Origin: Nitrosopumilaceae archaeon
GTDB lineage: Archaea; Thermoproteota; Nitrososphaeria; Nitrososphaerales; Nitrosopumilaceae
DNA: 32,103 bases
Assembly (NCBI GenBank): GCA_030041535.1
Contig: JASHNR010000008.1
Span: 1-32,103 of the forward strand
Direction of reading: 5' to 3'
Position 1 is the stretch's first letter. Each line of letters starts with the position of its first letter. The notes below the pieces were generated by a model. That model was not told the DNA's origin, did not search any database, and was given only the letters and a program-made list of their open reading frames with translations. The position numbers and the translations under genes are program-made. Positions 6,444 to 17,352 of this stretch are shown one piece after another.

Positions 6444-8075
6444 CTAGAGTTTCTGGAAGATATTCGCTATCACAGAAATTATATTGCTAAAAATTGCTTG
6501 CGGTGCGTTTATCACTTGGTTTATCGCTGCCGCAGAACTAGTTTGCTGCGGGCTTGAGCTTGACTGGGTTGATGATGGAGCAGATGATGAAGATTGGGTT
6601 GACTGGGTTGATGACGAGGTAGTAGAGGATAATGATGATGTACCAGAGCTACCTGAATGACTAGAATCTCCAGCATAGGTAGCAGTTATTGTTATGCTGC
6701 TAGATGAGGTGGTGGGCGGAGTATATGTCAAAGCACATTGGTTGTTTGAAAGGGTACACACATTTGGACTAAAAATTCCTCCTGCGCCGTTGTCACTCCA
6801 CGATACCATACCAATCATAGAGGAAGACGGGTTTGAAGTGTCAGCAACAGTTGCAGTTACAGTCATCGCAGTGCCCGGAGTAAATGTTGTAGGATTGGGT
6901 GTAACAGTTGTGGTTGTTGAATCAAGTGTGCTCGTAGATGTTTGCGATGTAGCTGATGATGTTCCACTACTTGTGGCATGAGTGGAATCACCTCCATAGC
7001 TTGCTGTTATTGTAACTGAAGAAGAGCTGCTGGAAGGGGTGTATGATGTGGTACAGCTGCCTGATGACAATGTGCAAGAAGCTGCGTTGAATGTGCCTCC
7101 TGCACCATTGTCATTCCACAGTATAGTTCCAGTTGGAGTAGCAGATGGGTTTGTTGTATCACTTACTTGAACTGTGAGTGAAACAGTTTCGCCTGCAGAT
7201 ATCGTTGCAGGATTTGGTGTAACAGTTGTAGTTGTTGAATCAAGTGTGTTTGTAGACGTTTGCGATGTAGCTGATGATGTTCCACTACTTGTGGCATGAG
7301 TGGAATCACCTCCATAGCTTGCTGTTATTGTAACTGAAGAAGAGCTGCTGGAAGGGGTGTATGATGTGGTACAGCTGCCTGATGACAATGTGCAAGAAGA
7401 CGGATTAAATGTGCCACCGGCACCATTGTCATTCCATGAGATTGTTCCAGTAGGGGTAGCAGACGGGTTTGAAGTGTCATCAACAATTACAGTTACAGTC
7501 ATAGCAGTGCCCGAAGTAAATGTTGCAGGATTTGGTGTAACAGTTGTAGTTGTTGAATCAAGTGTGTTTGTCGATGTAACTGATGATGTTCCACTACTTG
7601 TGGCATGAGTGGAATCACCTCCATAGCTTGCTGTTATTGTAACTGAAGAAGAGCTGCTGGAAGGGGTGTATGATGTGGTACAGCTACCTGATGACAATGC
7701 ACATGCTGGAGGATTAAATGTACCTCCTGCACCATTGTCATTCCACAGTATAGTTCCAGTTGGAGTAGCAGAGGGGTTTGTTGTATCACTAACAGTTACA
7801 GTAAGTGTTACAGCTGATCCGGGATTTGTAGTAGACGAACTTGGTGATACAGTAACAGTAGTAGAATCAAGAGTACTGGAAACTGATGTACTGTTGCTGT
7901 CGGTAAATATAATGCTGCTATTATCTGCCATTGCCGGAAGAATAGTAAAGCCGTTTAAAAGCGACGAACTCAGGATACAAAATATAAGAAAAACAGGAGC
8001 TACAAAATTTCGTATATTCAGCTTACCTAACATATTCCATTTATCTGACGCTACACGCCTGTTTTTCTCGTACAT
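6444..8075 (-). CDS. Large secreted Ser/Thr-rich Ig-like repeat protein
   Basis: Probably a cell-surface adhesin or envelope protein of about 543 aa. After a signal peptide (ending about AMADN) come four Ig-like repeats of about 100 residues. Each starts with LDSTTTTVTPNPAT, carries DTSNPSATPTGTISWNDNGAGGTF, then CTLSSGSCTTSYTPSS and ASYGGDSTHATSSG. Each repeat has two Cys 7-8 residues apart (ACALSSGSC, CTLSSGSC), perhaps a disulphide. A Ser/Gln-rich linker and a short hydrophobic C-terminal segment end the protein. I chose the ATG at 8075 because AAGGA lies 5-9 nt upstream and a TATA-like CATATTATC lies about 27 nt upstream. An ATG at 8156 and a TTG at 8177 in frame would add residues before the signal peptide, and an ATG at 8033 would remove some. 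Confidence 0.75.
   Translation of the reverse strand: MYEKNRRVASDKWNMLGKLNIRNFVAPVFLIFCILSSSLLNGFTILPAMADNSSIIFTDSNSTSVSSTLDSTTVTVSPSSSTTNPGSAVTLTVTVSDTTNPSATPTGTILWNDNGAGGTFNPPACALSSGSCTTSYTPSSSSSSVTITASYGGDSTHATSSGTSSVTSTNTLDSTTTTVTPNPATFTSGTAMTVTVIVDDTSNPSATPTGTISWNDNGAGGTFNPSSCTLSSGSCTTSYTPSSSSSSVTITASYGGDSTHATSSGTSSATSQTSTNTLDSTTTTVTPNPATISAGETVSLTVQVSDTTNPSATPTGTILWNDNGAGGTFNAASCTLSSGSCTTSYTPSSSSSSVTITASYGGDSTHATSSGTSSATSQTSTSTLDSTTTTVTPNPTTFTPGTAMTVTATVADTSNPSSSMIGMVSWSDNGAGGIFSPNVCTLSNNQCALTYTPPTTSSSSITITATYAGDSSHSGSSGTSSLSSTTSSSTQSTQSSSSAPSSTQSSSSPQQTSSAAAINQVINAPQAIFSNIISVIANIFQKL
6690..7880 (-). repeat. Four near-identical ~300-nt tandem gene-internal repeats
   Basis: This part of the surface-protein gene is a tandem array of about 300-nt units. 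Long blocks are identical at the DNA level: for example the segment with GTGGAATCACCTCCATAGCT recurs near 6980, 7300 and 7608, each time followed by the same Val/Ser-rich stretch. Such high nucleotide identity implies recent duplication or gene conversion and makes the region prone to copy-number change and misassembly. The first repeat (nearest 6700) is the most diverged. Confidence 0.75.
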
Positions 8076-8199
8076 CTGTTCCTTGAAAGGATTTTTGAGA
8101 TAATATGGCCCGTTGTAGAACCTTGGTAACTCGTATGTGAAGATTTTTACAAACATATAATGAAAACTTGATTGCAATTATTGCCTCCATCCAAAATAT

Positions 8200-8592: not shown

Positions 8593-9501
8593 CTATAATT
8601 TTAGTTCAAGTGATTCACGAAGCTCCTTGCATCTGTTCCGTATTGTCATCTCGGTGGTAGAAGAGGAAGCCAGTACAATGGCCTTTTGAGACTTTGATTC
8701 GCCATTTATCTGACATGATATGTACAATGCAGCTGAAGCAAATCCGACAGGATCTTTTCCTGAAGAGATTCCAATTTTCTTTGCCCGTTCTAAAATATTA
8801 AGTGCCGTACGCTTTGTTCGTTCCCTCACATCTACCTTGCTTGCTATGAAGACAAGTGATTTTACAGGATCTGCAACTGGTAGCTGCAAGTCTAGCTCTT
8901 GAACGAGCTTTCTATAGCTCCTAGACAAAACTTTTCTATCAATATTGGCAAGATTGGCTATCTCCGACAAGGTATGAGGTATCTCATTTTTTCTGCACAC
9001 TGCGTAAAGCGAAGCTGCAAGTATTACAGACGTGGATCTGCCCCTGCAAAGATGATTTAGATGAGCTTTTCTGTAAACATATGCAGTCTCTTGGACCATC
9101 ATGTGGGATAATGCGAGTTTGTCTTTCAGCCTTTCAAGCTCTGAAAATGCCTGACGATAATTTCTGTCTTCAGATGGATTTACACTTGTTCTACTATCCC
9201 ACATACGAAGCCTTTCAATTTTATCTCTTGAATCAAGCGGGATTGGTTTTCCATAGGCGTCCTTGCCAGAATTGCCTATTACCGTGTTAAGCCCCATATC
9301 ATGCATGGCAAGAGATATTGGGCTTCCCACCCTTGATTGTGTTAGCGTGTCATCATAAGATCGCCATTCAGGTCCTGAATGCTCAAGGTTTTCTTCAAGC
9401 ACAAGACCGCAGTGTTGGCAGAATAATTCCCCTCTAGTTGAATCAATAATCATCTTTTGTTGTGCGCATCTTGGGCAGTTTTTTGAATACCATTCTTCCA
9501 T
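8593..9501 (-). CDS. tfb: Transcription initiation factor IIB (TFB)
   Basis: TFB recruits RNA polymerase to TBP-bound promoters. The N-terminal zinc ribbon has Cys9, Cys12, Cys28 and Cys31 (CPRC...CQHC). The B-reader/linker follows (EWRSYDDTLTQSRVG...). Two cyclin folds then begin near residues 100 and 200, including the conserved GRSTSVILAASLYAVCR and KDPVGFASAALYISC helices. Length (302 aa) is normal. It starts 1 nt after the stop of the DUF6659-like gene, so the two should be co-transcribed. Thaumarchaea often carry several tfb paralogues. Whether this is the housekeeping copy cannot be told from the window. Confidence 0.95.
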   Translation of the reverse strand: MEEWYSKNCPRCAQQKMIIDSTRGELFCQHCGLVLEENLEHSGPEWRSYDDTLTQSRVGSPISLAMHDMGLNTVIGNSGKDAYGKPIPLDSRDKIERLRMWDSRTSVNPSEDRNYRQAFSELERLKDKLALSHMMVQETAYVYRKAHLNHLCRGRSTSVILAASLYAVCRKNEIPHTLSEIANLANIDRKVLSRSYRKLVQELDLQLPVADPVKSLVFIASKVDVRERTKRTALNILERAKKIGISSGKDPVGFASAALYISCQINGESKSQKAIVLASSSTTEMTIRNRCKELRESLELKL

Positions 9502-9502
9502 T

Positions 9503-9880
9503 TTAGTTCACTTTACTTAGTATTTTTTCTCCAAGTTTGCATAGGTTAGATCCCAAGTCACAACTGACATAGAGCAGTTCTTTACCCAGAGAAAATATGA
9601 GTACTGCAATCTTTTCTCGCTTGATGATAACATAGTTTACTTTGCCTAGTTTTCCATCAAATTCACGGTGCATTCTGGTGATCAATGTGGCTTCGGTTAG
9701 CACAACTTCGCCATCATTTCTATCTATAATGGGTACAAGTCCACGCCTAGTCCTGGAAACTATTGGTTTTCCATTGTCTGTAATGACTACTACGAAACGT
9801 ATCTTTGGATCGAGTTTGATTACTCTGTCACATGTAGACTCGCAGGTTTCCATCATGAGTTGGTGATACATTTGCCCCAC
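9503..9880 (-). CDS. DUF6659-like small protein upstream of tfb
   Basis: This soluble protein of about 125 aa has no signal peptide or membrane segment. The order helix, RFVVVITDNGKPI strand pair, long helix with ITRMHREFD, GKVNYVIIKREK strand, LLYVSCD strand, C-terminal helix resembles a roadblock/longin-like alpha-beta fold. From memory it fits the archaeal DUF6659 family. The gene at 31397-31819 shows the same pattern and may be a distant paralogue. The nominal start is a GTG at 9880; an ATG at 9871 is equally possible. Tight coupling to tfb (1-nt gap) hints at a link with transcription, but no function is established. Confidence 0.6.
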   Translation of the reverse strand: MGQMYHQLMMETCESTCDRVIKLDPKIRFVVVITDNGKPIVSRTRRGLVPIIDRNDGEVVLTEATLITRMHREFDGKLGKVNYVIIKREKIAVLIFSLGKELLYVSCDLGSNLCKLGEKILSKVN

Positions 9881-10233: not shown

Positions 10234-11193
10234 TTATGGAGATAAAAGATGTCCCCAGCCTCTTGTAATAAACTTGGATATGTCACTTGAGCTTATGCAG
10301 GCCGGTCTTGAATCATATGAGTTCAAGACAAGGCCGTATCCCGAAGGACAAATGACATTATTTGGGGCAATCCCTGATCTTATTTGTTGTTCAGGTGATT
10401 GGGCGGATTGCGACATGGAGCCTGCAGTCATATTTCCATAAGAATTCATTCCATAATTACCAGTCATATTTCCATTAGAATTCATTCCGTAGCCACCGGT
10501 CATATTTCCGAATTGGCCATAATGATTATGATGCCTCGCGTAACCACCATAGCTTCCAAAAGACATGCATGGATTATGCATTCCAAAGCCACCGGTCATA
10601 TTTCCAAAGTGATGCATCATGTAGCCACCGGTCATATTTCCAAAGTGATGCATCATGTAGCCACCGGTCATATTTCCAAAGTGATGCATCATGTAGCCAC
10701 CGGTCATATTTCCAAAGTGATGCATCATGTAGCCACCGGTCATATTTCCATAAGAATTCATTCCGTAGCCACCGGTCATATTTCCGAATTGGCCATAATG
10801 ATTATGATGCCTCGCGTAACCACCATAGCTTCCAAAAGACATGCATGGATTATGCATTCCAAAGCCACCGGCCATGTTTCCATTAGAATTCATTCCATAA
10901 TTACCAGTCATATTTCCATTAGAATTCATTCCATAATTACCAGTCATATTTCCATTAGAATTCATTCCATAATTACCAGTCATATTTCCATTAGAATTCA
11001 TTCCATACGTTCCGGTATAATTTCCGGATGGTACTACTTGTCCAGCGTCACCTCCTGAAACGGTCAGATTCACACCTTGAGTGTAATTTTCTGGCATGGT
11101 CTGTGCAATGGATGGTTGCACCATGATAGCTTGTGAAGATAAAAAAACGAACAGCATAACAAATAGAATGGATCTCATTATCTCCACATCCAT
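10234..11193 (-). CDS. Exported Met/His/Asn-rich repeat protein, likely metal-binding
   Basis: A signal peptide (MRSILFVMLFVFLSSQAIMV... to about SIAQ) leads into a repeat domain made of 11-12-residue units: GNMTGNYGMNSN, GNMTGGYGMNSY, and four identical GNMTGGYMMHHF. A longer block with NPCMSFGSYGGYARHHNHYG occurs twice. Thirteen GNM[T/A] units give dozens of Met and His residues, as in copper-binding exported proteins. Nearly every unit has an N-M-T sequon, so N-glycosylation is possible. The C-terminus (CPSGYGLVL...PACIS...FITRGWG) is a two-Cys module I recall from other thaumarchaeal secreted proteins. The start is at 11193, or at ATG 11178 with GGAG just before it. It is last in the unit with the oxidase and ZIP genes (87-nt gap). 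Copper storage or delivery is my inference. Confidence 0.7.
   Translation of the reverse strand: MDVEIMRSILFVMLFVFLSSQAIMVQPSIAQTMPENYTQGVNLTVSGGDAGQVVPSGNYTGTYGMNSNGNMTGNYGMNSNGNMTGNYGMNSNGNMTGNYGMNSNGNMAGGFGMHNPCMSFGSYGGYARHHNHYGQFGNMTGGYGMNSYGNMTGGYMMHHFGNMTGGYMMHHFGNMTGGYMMHHFGNMTGGYMMHHFGNMTGGFGMHNPCMSFGSYGGYARHHNHYGQFGNMTGGYGMNSNGNMTGNYGMNSYGNMTAGSMSQSAQSPEQQIRSGIAPNNVICPSGYGLVLNSYDSRPACISSSDISKFITRGWGHLLSP
10430..11015 (-). repeat. 36-nt coding tandem repeats
   Basis: The repeat domain of the Met/His-rich protein is visible as DNA repeats. Four copies of a 36-nt unit (about 10593-10740) are identical or nearly so, each with GTGATGCATCATGTAGCCAC. Four or more copies of a second 36-nt unit built on TTCCATTAGAATTCATTCC lie at 10875-11010. 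Two copies of a longer block containing CCATAATGATTATGATGCCT occur near 10514 and 10790. The pattern fits repeat expansion plus a larger internal duplication. There are no spacers and an open frame runs through, so it is not a CRISPR array. Confidence 0.85.
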
Positions 11194-11280: not shown

Positions 11281-12810
11281 TCATCCAACATTGATAGAAA
11301 ATTGAGCTGTATCTGAAACTGGCATGAAGTAAATTCCATCCACCTCTACCACCACATTGTAGGATCCTGCGTTTTGAAACTGGTATGGTACTGTAATAGA
11401 ACCTTCAGCAGCATGTAAAAGTGAGGTTGTAAATACTTGAGTTGTTCCTTGCATAATTGTAACTTTGTAATCAACATGCTCTTCAATTGAATTGGTTTGA
11501 TTGTCCATGAAAACAATATTGAGCTGAGTTGGTTGCCCCGTAGTTGGATTTTCAGGATTGGTTGATAATCCTATTTTTATATTTCCACTGCTTGATTGAT
11601 TGGTGCCCTGCGTTTCGTTATTCTTCTCAACAGTATACAGTGCCAGCATTCCACCTTCCATATGATCATACACATGACAATGGAAGAGCCAAGTGCCAAC
11701 ATTGTCAGGATACATATCTAGTACTTTCATACTCATAGGAAGAAGTTCTACCATGTCTGTTCTCTTATCGTCCATCAACAGCGTATTTCCATGCCAATGT
11801 GGTGAATGAATATCGCTTTCACCCCCCATGCCAGCTACATACCAACGTACATGTGTGTTCTCCTTCATAGTCAAGCCAGGAAGATTTCCATAGATGTATC
11901 CATTTATCGAATACTTCAAGTTGCTTTCCCAAAACATAGGATCAGTTGTGTTTGCCTGTGACATGTTTTCTCCCGTAAATGTCTGAAGATTATACGGAAA
12001 ATACGGGCTGTTAGTCTCATTAAATATTGTAAATAGCGTGACAAACTCTTGGTCTACTCCCTTGGGAGTTCCGTCAGGATTTGCTTCCCCGTGCCTTGTT
12101 ATTATTATTGGTCCCACAAGTCCAGCATTTGGATCTCCTATCTCATTAACATGAGAGTGATACATCCACAATATTGAACTTGGATCTTCAGGTCCTGGAC
12201 CTGCCCTCTCGGGAACATACCAAATGTATGTGAAGTTGCCTCCAGGAGGCACTGCATCGCCTGGTTTTTCAGAATCTGGAATTCCATCATTATATGGTGC
12301 GCCCTCTGAAGCTTTGTCATATAAAACTCCATGAGGATGCATGCTTACTGGAATGCGGCAATTGTTCTTGAATACTACCTGTATGGTATCACCAACTTCT
12401 GCATGAATCACGGGTCCCAATATGCCAAGATGTTCCCATTGTGCAGGCCTTGGTTGCAGTGTGGTAAAAGTACCATCAGTGTATCCCTGATAAAGACATT
12501 TTAGATATACACTGCCTATCCTGTCTTTTCCATTTTGGGTATAGAGAGCTGCATAGGGATCAGTTGCAAGAGGTTTTCCTGTGATCATGTTCATCCCTGA
12601 CGGAGCATAATTCCATTTTACTTCATTTGCAGCTATGTAATATGTACGAGTTACACCTTGAAACTGAGAAGGCGTAGCTACCTGTGTTACCATTGCAACT
12701 TGGTTAGAATTTGTACTTTGGTTTTCAGTAAAGTGATAAACAAGAACACCCGTCAACGCGGATGTCAATGCTATAATAATTCCAAACATTAGTGTGGTTC
12801 TAGATATCAT
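11281..12810 (-). CDS. Ceruloplasmin-like multicopper oxidase, likely ferroxidase or metal oxidase
   Basis: A membrane-anchored or exported oxidase of 509 aa that would couple substrate oxidation to reduction of O2 to water. One N-terminal hydrophobic helix (7-26) is followed by cupredoxin domain 1, with His158/His160 (HPHG) and His218/His220 (YHSH). Cupredoxin domain 2 has His335/338/340 (HSPHWHG) and HCHVYDHMEGGM, supplying His377, Cys378, His379, His383 and the axial Met388. All trinuclear and type-1 copper ligands are therefore present. YYIAANEVKWNYAP, NGKDRIGSVYLK and GILGPVIHAEVGD recall ceruloplasmin/hephaestin more than laccases. A C-terminal Ig-like domain of about 100 residues is extra. 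It starts 21 nt after the ZIP gene, in one unit. Substrate (Fe2+, Cu+, Mn2+ or organic) is not decided by sequence alone. Confidence 0.88.
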   Translation of the reverse strand: MISRTTLMFGIIIALTSALTGVLVYHFTENQSTNSNQVAMVTQVATPSQFQGVTRTYYIAANEVKWNYAPSGMNMITGKPLATDPYAALYTQNGKDRIGSVYLKCLYQGYTDGTFTTLQPRPAQWEHLGILGPVIHAEVGDTIQVVFKNNCRIPVSMHPHGVLYDKASEGAPYNDGIPDSEKPGDAVPPGGNFTYIWYVPERAGPGPEDPSSILWMYHSHVNEIGDPNAGLVGPIIITRHGEANPDGTPKGVDQEFVTLFTIFNETNSPYFPYNLQTFTGENMSQANTTDPMFWESNLKYSINGYIYGNLPGLTMKENTHVRWYVAGMGGESDIHSPHWHGNTLLMDDKRTDMVELLPMSMKVLDMYPDNVGTWLFHCHVYDHMEGGMLALYTVEKNNETQGTNQSSSGNIKIGLSTNPENPTTGQPTQLNIVFMDNQTNSIEEHVDYKVTIMQGTTQVFTTSLLHAAEGSITVPYQFQNAGSYNVVVEVDGIYFMPVSDTAQFSINVG

Positions 12811-12831: not shown

Positions 12832-13647
12832 TCAAACTAGGTTTACAAGCCAGCCAATCACAAAGCCAACAAAGATTCCAATGTAGACAGCTCGTTGGTT
12901 TAAGATGTGTACTAGCTTATTACTTACTTCTTCAACTGTTTCTGAATCTTTAACCATAACCTCTGATACGGCATCTGGTTCTCTGAAGAGTATTCTGAAC
13001 ATTGGCAGTATGACGTACAGTATAGCACCTATCGCTATGCCATTAAATGCCACGTCAAGAACGTTTGAATTGTAAAAGTATCCCGCGCCTCCACCAACTA
13101 TTGTTGGAACTCCTCCTATTAGGAACATCAACAACAATGCACCCAATCTCTTATCCAATTTACCCGCAAGAGGTGCAGCTATTGGGAAACCCTCGGTTAA
13201 ATTCTGGATAGTGAAACCCACCAATATAACAAGCGTCGTACCTTCAAGTCCATACTGTACGCTTGCAGCGCCAAAGACTAACCCTTCAGTTAAATTCTGG
13301 AACCCCATCGCAATGGCAATTATCAGAGCCAGTTTGACAGGTGACAACCCCTTCTTTGATCTGTGCTCAAGGAAATATAATACAAGAAATCCACCAGCTA
13401 CTGCTGCGCCAAATATGCCATCAAAAAATGGCGATGTACCATATCCTGCTAATGAACCATTGGACAACATAGGAGCTACATCAGAGTATACATCTGACAT
13501 GAGAAAGACAAGAATACCAACTGCTATAGCGTTGAGAAACCTGATTTTTCGATCTCCCATTTTCTTGCGAAGAACAATTGGTAATGACAGATAGACGGAA
13601 AGGCCCATAATTGCAGAAAGCGCTAGTGTTACTATAAAGTCAACCAA
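12832..13647 (-). CDS. ZIP-family metal permease with His-to-Gln changes
   Basis: A permease of about 271 aa with around eight membrane segments that resembles ZIP (ZupT-like) divalent-metal transporters. The metal-site motifs normally read HNxPEG and HExPE. Here both read QNLTEG (GFQNLTEGLVFG and IQNLTEGFPIAAP). Glu is kept and the His replaced by Gln in both helices, so metal choice or transport may differ. I start at the TTG at 13647. GGGAG lies 9 nt upstream and the TTG is 1 nt after the TGA of the pentapeptide gene. The longer frame to 13716 would overlap that gene by 68 nt. Its place next to a ferroxidase-type oxidase fits oxidase-coupled metal uptake or export. Confidence 0.8.
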   Translation of the reverse strand: MVDFIVTLALSAIMGLSVYLSLPIVLRKKMGDRKIRFLNAIAVGILVFLMSDVYSDVAPMLSNGSLAGYGTSPFFDGIFGAAVAGGFLVLYFLEHRSKKGLSPVKLALIIAIAMGFQNLTEGLVFGAASVQYGLEGTTLVILVGFTIQNLTEGFPIAAPLAGKLDKRLGALLLMFLIGGVPTIVGGGAGYFYNSNVLDVAFNGIAIGAILYVILPMFRILFREPDAVSEVMVKDSETVEEVSNKLVHILNQRAVYIGIFVGFVIGWLVNLV

Positions 13648-13648
13648 T

Positions 13649-14524
13649 TCAATTTTCTCCCGGCACACAGACGGGGTTATTTTGGCAATTAAGGTGAGCG
13701 CCAGTAAGAATTGCACTGCCCAAGTCTACCCCCAGCAAATTATCACCATCAAAATTGGCATCAGTGAGGTTATCATAAGCAAATCCTGCATCTTCAAGAT
13801 TTGCACCTCTAAAGTCAGCGCCAGAAATATCAGAATTCATAAATATCATGTGAGTCAGATCCGCTCCTTTGAATACAAGACCGTGTGCAGTTGCATATCT
13901 TAATGAACTGTCATGAAGATTTGCATTGGTGAAATTTGCATATGTACTATTTACATAATTAAAGTCAGAAAATGGTGCATCAACGCCAACAAAGCTTGCA
14001 CCAGTAATATTTGCCTCTGGCATGTCAATGTTTGTCATTTCTGCTTTGTCAAAAACAGCATACTGAAGATGTGCCTCTGTTAAATCTCCTTTGAAGAGAT
14101 TTGTATTGGTGAAATTTGTGCCTTGAAGGTTTGCCCCTTCAAGATCGACTCGTTCTAGATCAACACCGCCATAGTTACATCCATTCCAGTCCACCAGTGG
14201 AAAGTTTTGGTCATTGCAATTTTTGGATTGCTGGACTGATTGCTCCAATAATGATTGTACTGCATTTTGAGGCTGTGAAACAGCAGTAGAGTTTTCTTGT
14301 GTTGTGATAGACGACAAAAGGCCATTTTGAACAAGTAGACGCATTCCTTGAAGATATTGATTATCGCTTATCTTTCCCTCAACCCATAGCTTTGCGTTAT
14401 CTTTTAACCACGACATGGAAATAATGCTATTGTCGTCAGCATATGCTAGATTTCTTGAAATCGATGATAATGCAATAACGGAAACTGTTGCTACAATTAA
14501 CATAACAAGTGTCGAATGTTTCAT
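13649..14524 (-). CDS. Exported pentapeptide-repeat protein with W-domain
   Basis: The protein (291 aa) has a signal peptide (to about LAYADD). A single W-domain follows (SWLKDNAKLWVEGKISDNQY...GLL), then a right-handed beta-helix of pentapeptide repeats (A[DN]LxG type: GVDLERVDLEGANLQGTNF ... ADLTHMIFMNSDISGADF). The end has two Cys (CQNNPVC). The ATG at 14524 is chosen over the upstream GTG (14533) because a shared promoter block lies exactly 21 nt upstream, the same spacing as for the gene starting at 17265. It leads the unit with ZIP, oxidase and Met/His-repeat genes. Pentapeptide helices usually act as binding scaffolds. Its role in this set is unknown. Confidence 0.82.
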   Translation of the reverse strand: MKHSTLVMLIVATVSVIALSSISRNLAYADDNSIISMSWLKDNAKLWVEGKISDNQYLQGMRLLVQNGLLSSITTQENSTAVSQPQNAVQSLLEQSVQQSKNCNDQNFPLVDWNGCNYGGVDLERVDLEGANLQGTNFTNTNLFKGDLTEAHLQYAVFDKAEMTNIDMPEANITGASFVGVDAPFSDFNYVNSTYANFTNANLHDSSLRYATAHGLVFKGADLTHMIFMNSDISGADFRGANLEDAGFAYDNLTDANFDGDNLLGVDLGSAILTGAHLNCQNNPVCVPGEN

Positions 14525-14537
14525 TAGGTGCACCTAA
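14524..14537. promoter_or_regulatory. 14-bp perfect palindrome at the start codon
   Basis: TTAGGTGCACCTAA is a perfect palindrome directly abutting the ATG of the pentapeptide gene. It lies downstream of the TATA-like region, where a repressor dimer would block transcription or initiation. The second promoter copy at 17286 lacks it, so any control through it would be private to this unit. Confidence 0.4.
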
Positions 14538-14544
14538 TTTGAAG

Positions 14545-14611
14545 AGATATTTAATTTGTCGATTAGAGACAATTTATGAAAACAAATATTGATTCCAACT
14601 ATATGGAATAT
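14545..14611 (-). promoter_or_regulatory. Shared promoter block, copy 1
   Basis: These 67 nt match 17286-17352 at 60 positions, including 25 identical bases in a row at the gene-proximal end. On the minus strand the proximal end holds an AT-rich TATA-like TTAAATAT (14547-14554) centred about 26 nt from the ATG, fitting a leaderless transcript. Just upstream, TTGTC and GACAA form an inverted repeat around GATTAGA, a candidate operator or activator site. Upstream of the gene it drives there is no other gene in 180 nt. Confidence 0.7.
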
Positions 14612-14710
14612 GTCTTGGTGTTTTAGTGTAGACAGATTTAGATCAAGATGAATATTTTATAAAATAACCAGTTACAGAATTGAGAATTAATATCTGAAAA
14701 TCAAATTATA

Positions 14711-15802
14711 TCACACGACACTATGTTTACAGAAAAATATCATGGTGAAAAAAAATGTTCCGGCCATGACAAGTAGCGGAAATGGGAATTCTGGAGTTGT
14801 TATTACAGGTGTTATGGATATATTACTGTAGCCTACAGGAAAATCCAAGCTTATGTGTTTGTATGTTTTGCCCGAAATTATTTCAGAAGAAGATACCTCT
14901 CGAAAAGGAGTAGCTCCATCTACAGTTGCACTTAAAGAATCAGATTTTAGATACGAGTCAGGTTCTGATGTTATCATCAATCCAACCCATCCACCCATTA
15001 CAAAATCTCCTCTTGCCCGAAAAGTGATGCTATGCGTAGATTGGTCATAGTTAACATCCTTTATCTTTCCATCAGATTGTATCTCAAAAGATATGTTTTG
15101 TCCATTTTCAGCCGGTAAAGAATAATTCTGGATTTCAGGTCCGCCCGGTATATAGCAGCTGTAATAGAAAACATCTTTTGAGACAGAATCAATTGGAACA
15201 AGTGTAAAGCTAGCAGAATCATTGGAGGAAATCTTCTGAATTAAGTCACTTTCAGTAACATCGAGTACCTTGGCATGCGCATCCATCGCTATGGCAAGAA
15301 CTTTGATGCCAAAGAAATCATTAGGAGAGGTGTTGTGTAAAAGACCAGTCATCGCATGTGTGGATGGATCCATATGCAATGAACTGTAATTAATTTGAAG
15401 CGAATCATACGGTTGTTGAAGCGTTGTTTGTGAAGATATCTTCATGTCAGTTAAAGTAAAATTTTCTGCTGTATCATTAGATAAATAAATCTTGAATGGC
15501 ATGGCCATGCCATGGCCTATTATTCCTACATATTGTGTATAGTAGGCTGACTGTAAATCAGACTTGCTAAAATAAATCTCTGATTCAATGTTGTCGTTAG
15601 GATCTGTATTCTGAATTTCTCCTATTATGTATTTTTTACCTTCATTATCTGTAATGACTTTGTCAAAATTAAACGAACCCAAAACCTGTTCTGCGTATAC
15701 ATGCGGAATAAGTATGAGACTAGAATAAAAAATTAAAGATAACGTCATGATACCCATAAGACCAATTTTTTCACATAAATTCCTAAATAATATACAAAAC
15801 AT
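14711..15802 (-). CDS. Secreted protein with PEF-CTERM-like tail
   Basis: A 363-aa exported protein of unknown function. An N-terminal hydrophobic segment (about residues 16-36) is followed by a beta-rich body, with phrases such as GEIQNTDPNDNIESEIYFSK and LHNTSPNDFFGIKVLA typical of repeated Ig-like domains. It ends in TPEFPFPLLVMAGTFFF...KHSVV, a PEF motif plus hydrophobic helix plus basic tail, as in archaeosortase-processed surface proteins. The ATG at 15802 lies about 28-35 nt from a TATA-like TCAAATACC, so I keep it; the ATG at 15757 would give a more standard signal peptide. It follows the NirK-like gene by 41 nt and probably shares its transcript. Confidence 0.7.
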   Translation of the reverse strand: MFCILFRNLCEKIGLMGIMTLSLIFYSSLILIPHVYAEQVLGSFNFDKVITDNEGKKYIIGEIQNTDPNDNIESEIYFSKSDLQSAYYTQYVGIIGHGMAMPFKIYLSNDTAENFTLTDMKISSQTTLQQPYDSLQINYSSLHMDPSTHAMTGLLHNTSPNDFFGIKVLAIAMDAHAKVLDVTESDLIQKISSNDSASFTLVPIDSVSKDVFYYSCYIPGGPEIQNYSLPAENGQNISFEIQSDGKIKDVNYDQSTHSITFRARGDFVMGGWVGLMITSEPDSYLKSDSLSATVDGATPFREVSSSEIISGKTYKHISLDFPVGYSNISITPVITTPEFPFPLLVMAGTFFFTMIFFCKHSVV

Positions 15803-15843
15803 GGTCTTGTAATTACAATTTGAAGAGATAGGTATTTGATCTT

Positions 15844-17265
15844 TTATTCTCCAAGATAACCTTGATCCAGAGTACCGTTAGGTTGTGGAATTTCGTTTGG
15901 ACATGATGAAGAAATGCTCCATTGTCCATGTACTTGGACAACACAATCAGGCTTGAGAGGAGTACCAAATGTTTGCGTTACTGTACTTTGCGGTATGCTT
16001 GTATCTGGCACGTCAGATAGAGGTGGAACTGCGTTTGATGGGTTTGGTCCAGGAGTATTTCCAACTACTATAACAGCAAATTGCCCCTTGGCAGCTTGAG
16101 AATAGTCGTGATTTATGAGAACATAGACCCCAGGTTGAGTAAATGTTACATCAATAATTGCGGTATTTGAGCCTCCAAGATTGAATGTTTGTGCGTTAGT
16201 TTCCACCAGTCCAGCTTGTGTAACTCTATCAAGTTGTTCTCCAACAATGTGAATATTATCCATGAAATCTCCCACATTTAGAACAAAGAATCTCACATGA
16301 TCTCCAACAGTAAAGTTGAGAGGATGAGCATTTTGTGGAGCAGGAATGGCACTGCCAGAATCAGGATTTACACTGTGGAAAAAGTTCGCGAGTGGTTGAT
16401 AACCAAATGGCTCACCGTTGATGTAACTGTATGAGTCATTGTGGTTTAACATGGCATTTATGTCATAATCTCCACTATCAGTTTTATTCGCTATCAGATA
16501 ATATTCTGAAAAGTCCAATACAATTTCTTTTGCAGCACTATCCACATGCATTTCTTGAACTTGGTTATCAGTGGTTGCATAGCTTAGGTCATATGGTTCA
16601 TATCCATGTTTTGGATCCACTATAACTCCACCTTGCATTCCTCGGAACACATGCTCGTCTATATCGTTTATGTTACCTTCGCAATGATATTCATAAAAAC
16701 CAGGATGTAATGCGACAAACAGATATGACGTGGCATTACCCATGTCTGTTTCTGGTAACCATGGAGTAAACTTTGCTGCAGACGTAATTGCAGCATGATT
16801 GTACAAGTCATGATTGTCAGTGTTAGTTATTGGATCAATTATTGTTGCGTTAATGATATCGCCTTCTGTCACCCTAAATGTAGGACCCGGAATAGTCCCA
16901 TTGAAAGTATATGCTATTACTTGGGTAGCTGTACCTGGACCAACCAAAGCATTGTCCAACGCAATGGTTTTCTCCACCGGCACAAGTGTCATGTGACGCA
17001 CTTGGGCTCCAGAATCTTCCATTGCCTGCGCTTGTTGTGGCGTAATTTGTGCTAGTCCTCCTACAAAGGAGAGACCACTGCCAGAGTTTTGAAGATCATT
17101 ATTTGAAAGTGGTTGTGCAATAGATACGATATCGTCAACCGCTGCAGATTTTGTAATATTTGAAGTGGAAATGGGATTTGTACCTGACAACAAAAATACA
17201 CTCATAATAATAATTCCAGCTATTATTGGAGAAACCGTCATGACGGTTTTTCGTTTTAAAGCCAT
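15844..17265 (-). CDS. NirK-like two-domain cupredoxin protein, atypical active site
   Basis: An exported protein of 473 aa with an N-terminal hydrophobic segment (11-27) and two cupredoxin domains arranged as in copper nitrite reductase. NGTIPGPTFRVTEGD marks domain 1. Type-1 ligands are His152, Cys195, His205 and Met210. Type-2 ligands are His157, His194 and, from domain 2, His386 (LINHD). The segment that reads H-S/N-L/V-D-F-H in NirK is HDLYNH here, so the catalytic Asp (Asp98 in Alcaligenes numbering) is Tyr. Ten residues separate Cys195 and His205 in a NINDIDEH loop. A C-terminal tail of about 70 residues with two Cys is extra. It may be an electron carrier or different oxidase instead of a nitrite reductase. 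The start is supported by the promoter copy 21 nt upstream. Confidence 0.78.
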   Translation of the reverse strand: MALKRKTVMTVSPIIAGIIIMSVFLLSGTNPISTSNITKSAAVDDIVSIAQPLSNNDLQNSGSGLSFVGGLAQITPQQAQAMEDSGAQVRHMTLVPVEKTIALDNALVGPGTATQVIAYTFNGTIPGPTFRVTEGDIINATIIDPITNTDNHDLYNHAAITSAAKFTPWLPETDMGNATSYLFVALHPGFYEYHCEGNINDIDEHVFRGMQGGVIVDPKHGYEPYDLSYATTDNQVQEMHVDSAAKEIVLDFSEYYLIANKTDSGDYDINAMLNHNDSYSYINGEPFGYQPLANFFHSVNPDSGSAIPAPQNAHPLNFTVGDHVRFFVLNVGDFMDNIHIVGEQLDRVTQAGLVETNAQTFNLGGSNTAIIDVTFTQPGVYVLINHDYSQAAKGQFAVIVVGNTPGPNPSNAVPPLSDVPDTSIPQSTVTQTFGTPLKPDCVVQVHGQWSISSSCPNEIPQPNGTLDQGYLGE

Positions 17266-17285
17266 CCATCAACAGGCTATTGCAC

Positions 17286-17352
17286 AGATATTTAATTTGT
17301 CGATTAGAGATAATTTATGAAAATAAATGTTGATTCTAACAACTTGGAATAT
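17286..17352 (-). promoter_or_regulatory. Shared promoter block, copy 2
   Basis: This is the second copy of the 67-nt block (60 of 67 identical to 14545-14611), again exactly 21 nt upstream of an ATG (17265). The TATA-like element is unchanged. The inverted repeat is slightly weakened (TTGTC...GATAA instead of GACAA). The 21 nt between the block and the start codon are unrelated in the two copies, so the conservation follows the control element and not a general duplication. Confidence 0.7.

Follow-up and report, generated by a model that had tools for sequence, protein, structure and literature searches.

The window (the whole stretch of DNA analysed, 32,103 nt) comes from Ca. Nitrosotalea, an ammonia-oxidizing archaeon of acid soil that belongs to a globally important group. 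Two gene units on its minus strand are each preceded by one copy of a 67-nt block:

10234–11193 (minus): Met/His-rich repeat protein, 36-nt units (GNMTGGYMMHHF / GNMTGNYGMNSN), last gene of the metal unit
11281–12810 (minus): multicopper oxidase (PF07731/PF07732; best PDB match 5n0k)
12832–13716 (minus): ZIP-family metal transporter (PF02535, E = 2.3e-6, below the curated cut-off)
13649–14524 (minus): secreted pentapeptide-repeat protein (Pfam PF00805), first gene of unit 1
14524–14537 (minus): putative operator A, perfect palindrome TTAGGTGCACCTAA, between TATA box and ATG of the pentapeptide unit
14545–14611 (minus): block, copy 1, ahead of the pentapeptide unit
14548–14554 (minus): TATA box TTAAATA of the pentapeptide unit (AAATTAAATA is (nearly) invariant in 22 blocks)
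14592–14609 (minus): putative operator B, copy 1, ATTCCATATAGTTGGAAT (ATTCYA-N6-TRGAAT); it begins 55 nt ahead of TTAAATA and is conserved in the 22-block alignment and across the family
14711–15802 (minus): second gene of the NirK unit, for a surface protein whose C-terminal tail is of PEF type (from reading the sequence)
15844–17265 (minus): NirK-like copper protein, second paralogue (NCBIfam TIGR02376, below cut-off)
17286–17352 (minus): block, copy 2, ahead of the NirK unit
17289–17295 (minus): TATA box TTAAATA of the NirK unit, with no operator A after it
17333–17350 (minus): putative operator B, copy 2, ATTCCAAGTTGTTAGAAT, from an exact B search of the genome

The start of the ZIP gene overlaps the preceding gene, and the true start may be later. 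The oxidase is nearest in the PDB to ceruloplasmin (5n0k; E = 9e-225, summed over three ceruloplasmin repeats), which is a ferroxidase. The Met/His-rich gene contains two duplicated halves of 276 nt; its product matches no Pfam family and is likely a metal-binding surface protein. The PEF-tailed protein has no family in Pfam or NCBIfam. Just downstream of the metal unit is a transcription factor B paralogue (8593–9501, minus strand), with the gene of a DUF6659 protein (9503–9880) between them, and this pair also adjoins the metal unit in G019 (locus L066). Other relatives have a Dps-like gene after the oxidase (G014, L099) or a Fur-family regulator gene after the metal unit (G006, L056), both of which fit an iron context. 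Elsewhere, the window encodes a large, acidic-tailed protein (6444–8177, minus strand) in whose gene a unit of about 318 nt is repeated three to four times, and it has AT-rich tandem repeats of TTTTGATATGTTTT units at the contig end (149–331).

A recount confirmed that the two blocks are identical at 60 of 67 positions, as originally predicted, while the best ungapped 67-mer from 15 shuffles of both intergenic regions reached 35 matches. Each block lies exactly 21 nt before the first ATG of its own unit, again as predicted. The likeness falls away on either side, with 5 of 21 matches between block and ATG and 15 of 60 in the 60 nt further upstream, and a scan of the whole 1.83-Mb host genome revealed no third copy. 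The 21-nt segments had been described as unrelated; this holds for their low identity, but the segment of the pentapeptide copy contains the conserved palindrome A, the last A of which is also a base of the start codon. The centre of the TATA box is about 27 nt before the ATG in this unit, and the mRNA is therefore probably leaderless or nearly so.

Exact operator B palindromes occur at only three places in the host genome. The third (C31:54131–54148 of the host genome, G000) is 119 nt before a ferredoxin gene. A B site 118–119 nt ahead of the ferredoxin gene is found in G000 and G029, and not in G002, making this gene a possible B-only target, offered as a lead only.

In a DNA search of 120 relatives, many Ca. 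Nitrosotalea genomes proved to carry the block. It is also present in N. devanaterra (LN890280), N. bavarica and Nitrosotalea sp. TS. Twenty-two copies were aligned to build a sequence-only profile, which was used to search 37 genomes of Ca. Nitrosotalea and a family set of 250 genomes. In the family search, profile scores under about 22 bits were taken as the noise tail, against which 39 strong sites (full blocks) were identified in 30 genomes: 29 of the 37 from the genus, and one (G293) from a neighbouring genus. The genes behind all 39 were read, and comprised about 30 pentapeptide, four multicopper oxidase, three ZIP and two NirK-like genes, the last in the window and in G019. The profile search thus bears out the proposal that the block is a control element, as strong sites are confined to these four kinds of gene and the block recurs in the genus only before them.

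The conserved parts of the block are palindrome B (ATTCYA-N6-TRGAAT), the TTTGTTTTCA stretch and the TATA box (AAATTAAATA). The inverted repeat to which attention had first been drawn, TTGTC-N7-GACAA, does not survive this comparison. It is already imperfect in the second copy, only 2–4 of 5 arm positions match in most relatives, and it was rejected for this poor conservation; B, on the other hand, keeps 5–6 of 6 arm pairs in 19 of 22 sequences. A second palindrome, A (TTAG(G/C/T)-N4-CCTAA), lies 3′ of the TATA box, outside the 67-nt block and often running into the ATG. It has the N4 spacing at 35 of the 39 strong sites, and is spaced by N6 in G034 and degenerate in G014 (one site each); neither NirK block, in the window or in G019, has an operator A. 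As read from these alignments, the 67-nt block is the upstream part of an element with two palindromes placed around a TATA box. The divergent region between ZIP and HTH1 (a winged-helix gene considered below) in Nitrosotalea has the order A-TATA-B-TATA-A, in which one near-perfect B is common to both directions.

The same pair extends well beyond the genus. The TATA-A pattern was found in 128 of the 250 family genomes, against about eight matches of a reversed control pattern; in bacterial contigs, matches were at about the level expected by chance for 257 Gb. Outside the genus, B (up to two mismatches) was present at 49 of 50 A sites read, always starting 29 or 42 nt before TTAAATA. The first 30 of these sites all had B with no more than one mismatch, where shuffled upstream sequence gave an expectation of 0.05. 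With the distance of 55 nt in the pentapeptide and NirK blocks, the three classes (29, 42 and 55) differ by steps of 13 nt, and 34 of 38 sequences in the 42-nt class have a third half-site, TRGAAT, 13 nt further on. Promoter architecture, conservation, fixed spacing and the genes that follow are all seen directly in the genomes. Outside Nitrosotalea, the gene behind A and B encodes either the substrate-binding protein of a PhnD-like ABC importer or, in the same place, an FTR1 iron permease, and upstream of these sites are CbtA and CbtB together with HTH1 and HTH2, a pair of paralogous genes for winged-helix proteins. The complete genome G187 carries this A+B, PhnD/Cbt/HTH arrangement. In Nitrosopumilus-type loci, such as L213 and L266, the order is CbtB-CbtA-HTH1-HTH2-[B-TATA-A]-PhnD-ABC.

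The NirK unit has a history of its own. Nearly every genome of the genus has another NirK, about 40% identical to the window paralogue (42% for the host's own, at C12:55907), and the paralogue with the block is restricted to the window genome and G019. NirK relatives of 55–57% identity in G020 and G029 had no strong profile match nearby. Over 63 nt the two blocks of the window share 89% identity and are less alike to the copies of other species, except for one at 86%, while the G019 NirK block shows 71–76% identity to the four others compared. Given this difference, the block in the window was likely spread by recent copying or gene conversion. The closeness of the window copies also speaks for a simpler view, that the block is just a strong core promoter recently duplicated in this lineage, with no common regulator. 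This is very improbable and already contradicted, since A, B and their spacing are kept over genera in which the remaining sequence has diverged, and the sites are uncommon and stand before genes of only a few functional classes. Copying of the block to the NirK paralogue without A would leave the NirK unit answering to B only. The original prediction of one shared metal regulon therefore holds in part: B and the TATA box are common to both units, but without A the NirK unit can share only part of the control.

Structural work has proposed the 14-bp TTAGGNNNNCCTAA as the true (redefined) one-dimer consensus of IdeR/DtxR (PMC8464063). Operator A, as TTAGGTGCACCTAA in the window and TTAG(G/C)-N4-CCTAA in relatives, equals this consensus. 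The host genome encodes two DtxR-family proteins (PF01325, over the cut-off), one nearest to MntR and the other to SloR/ScaR/DtxR. The latter has a C-x2-E-H stretch as in the metal site of DtxR (C102/E105/H106). It is 80–97% identical in most of the family, and some match is present in 235 of 250 genomes. It is unlikely to be the sole binder of A, because G187 carries A and B and has only distant paralogues (E = 7.8e-10) in place of a clear orthologue.

For B, the winged-helix proteins were considered. HTH2 is rejected as the B binder in the host, where its gene is absent although B is kept. HTH1 is present in 231 of the 250 family genomes, and its AlphaFold2 model (mean pLDDT 84.8) has an ArsR-type winged-helix fold, the best PDB matches being Phr, NolR, PH1932, SmtB and CzrA (best 2p4w and 4omz). 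The host protein has no Cys and no His, and so no classical metal site, and it matches no sequence family above the curated cut-off. A Cys conserved in HTH2 (NVC) is missing from HTH1. HTH1 is the best candidate for the predicted binding to B, because its own promoter in Nitrosotalea carries A and a near-perfect B; it is also a rival candidate for A, since its gene adjoins both palindromes.

HTH1, or an HTH1/HTH2 pair, might then bind both palindromes, with no DtxR protein involved. The wide distribution of HTH1 would suit this, as would the position of its gene directly behind A in Nitrosotalea, the HTH1-HTH2 genes adjoining A and B in other genera, the TTAG/CTAA common to the half-sites, and the G187 case. 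We consider it rather doubtful: A is the DtxR/IdeR one-dimer consensus letter for letter, the ArsR-type fold of HTH1 comes without visible metal ligands, and HTH2 is missing from a host that has kept B.

The explanation we prefer (probability about 0.6) is that the block forms the upstream portion of a composite promoter for metal starvation, most likely of iron, with a predicted DtxR-family repressor acting on A and another regulator acting on B. Such a promoter would read, in order, operator B (ATTCYA-N6-TRGAAT), TATA box and, at the transcription start, operator A (TTAGS-N4-CCTAA). When metal (iron most likely) is sufficient, a metal-loaded DtxR-family dimer on A would cover the start site and block initiation. 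A second dimeric regulator, for which HTH1 is the best candidate, would occupy B, on the upstream side of the TATA box; as activator or co-repressor placed 29, 42 or 55 nt away, it would help or hinder TBP/TFB. As iron falls, A would be freed and the pentapeptide/ZIP/ceruloplasmin-like oxidase/Met-His unit made, or, in other genera, the FTR1 permease or PhnD-like importer. The promoter thus probably turns metal-uptake genes on at iron shortage.

Iron is favoured by FTR1, the ceruloplasmin-like oxidase and the DtxR-type box, although PhnD is annotated for phosphonate and CbtAB for cobalt. The same architecture could instead respond to copper, or else to zinc, manganese or cobalt. Each of the two window units encodes copper-related proteins, with the oxidase and the Met-His protein in one and NirK in the other; the ZIP protein could carry copper, and CbtAB suggests cobalt. 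Multicopper oxidases and permeases of ammonia-oxidizing archaea have been discussed as copper-uptake genes, and oxidases are up under copper limitation in N. viennensis (PMC7785015). A signal other than iron is nevertheless unlikely, with FTR1, of an iron permease family, behind the same A and B, an oxidase nearest to ceruloplasmin, and an A that fits the iron-type DtxR box. The copper motif of N. viennensis, TTCSGSMTTTGWACYANT, is another sequence, its consensus matching neither A nor B when compared by eye. Iron is the better guess because the A+B pair is family-wide and reaches FTR1 and an ABC importer.

Ammonia-oxidizing archaea need iron, and how they take it up is an outstanding question; N. 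maritimus was reported to have no known iron-specific transporter, with an uncharacterised one left open (PMC6776035, PMC9723733). A promoter code that precedes FTR1 in some genera and, in the same position, the PhnD-like importer in others makes candidates of this importer and its regulators, and supplies exact sequences for testing. Tentatively, and at something short of even odds, we propose a family-wide two-operator iron regulon of the Nitrosopumilaceae, in which a DtxR repressor would act with an ArsR-fold regulator lacking metal ligands. It would expose the missing iron importers (the PhnD-like ABC system and CbtAB, interchangeable with FTR1), and a NirK paralogue would have been captured through B in two Nitrosotalea species. 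If so, this would be the first two-operator metal regulon described in the group, and would link metal status to a paralogue of copper nitrite reductase.

The original prediction that no element of this kind had been described agrees with the openly accessible literature on Nitrosopumilus, Nitrosotalea and Thaumarchaeota (subscription papers being outside this scope), in which no earlier description was found. The nearest relatives are the IdeR/DtxR iron boxes of Actinobacteria (PMC8464063), which A resembles as a 14-bp TTAGGNNNNCCTAA at the transcription start of metal-uptake genes, in a genome encoding DtxR-family proteins. Here, however, a single-dimer site known from its sequence is paired at fixed spacing with B, which the DtxR system lacks, and the promoter is of the archaeal TATA type. 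We know of no second operator of type B for the Halobacterium iron regulators Idr1, Idr2 and SirR. These regulators (named in PMC5605881) are similar in that DtxR-type repressors control archaeal metal homeostasis. The copper-limitation motif of N. viennensis, TTCSGSMTTTGWACYANT (PMC7785015), is likewise an upstream motif common to metal-related genes of ammonia-oxidizing archaea, but differs in sequence and in genes and has no second operator at the start codon. HTH1 shares its modelled fold with the ArsR/SmtB-type winged-helix regulators (Pyrococcus Phr, NolR, CzrA), and differs from them in lacking Cys/His metal ligands and a sequence family above cut-off. The metal-dependent repressor regulon is already known as a kind; new, as far as the openly searchable literature goes, are the joining of a DtxR-type box to a second palindrome at locked spacing, the partner protein of ArsR fold and the range of target genes.
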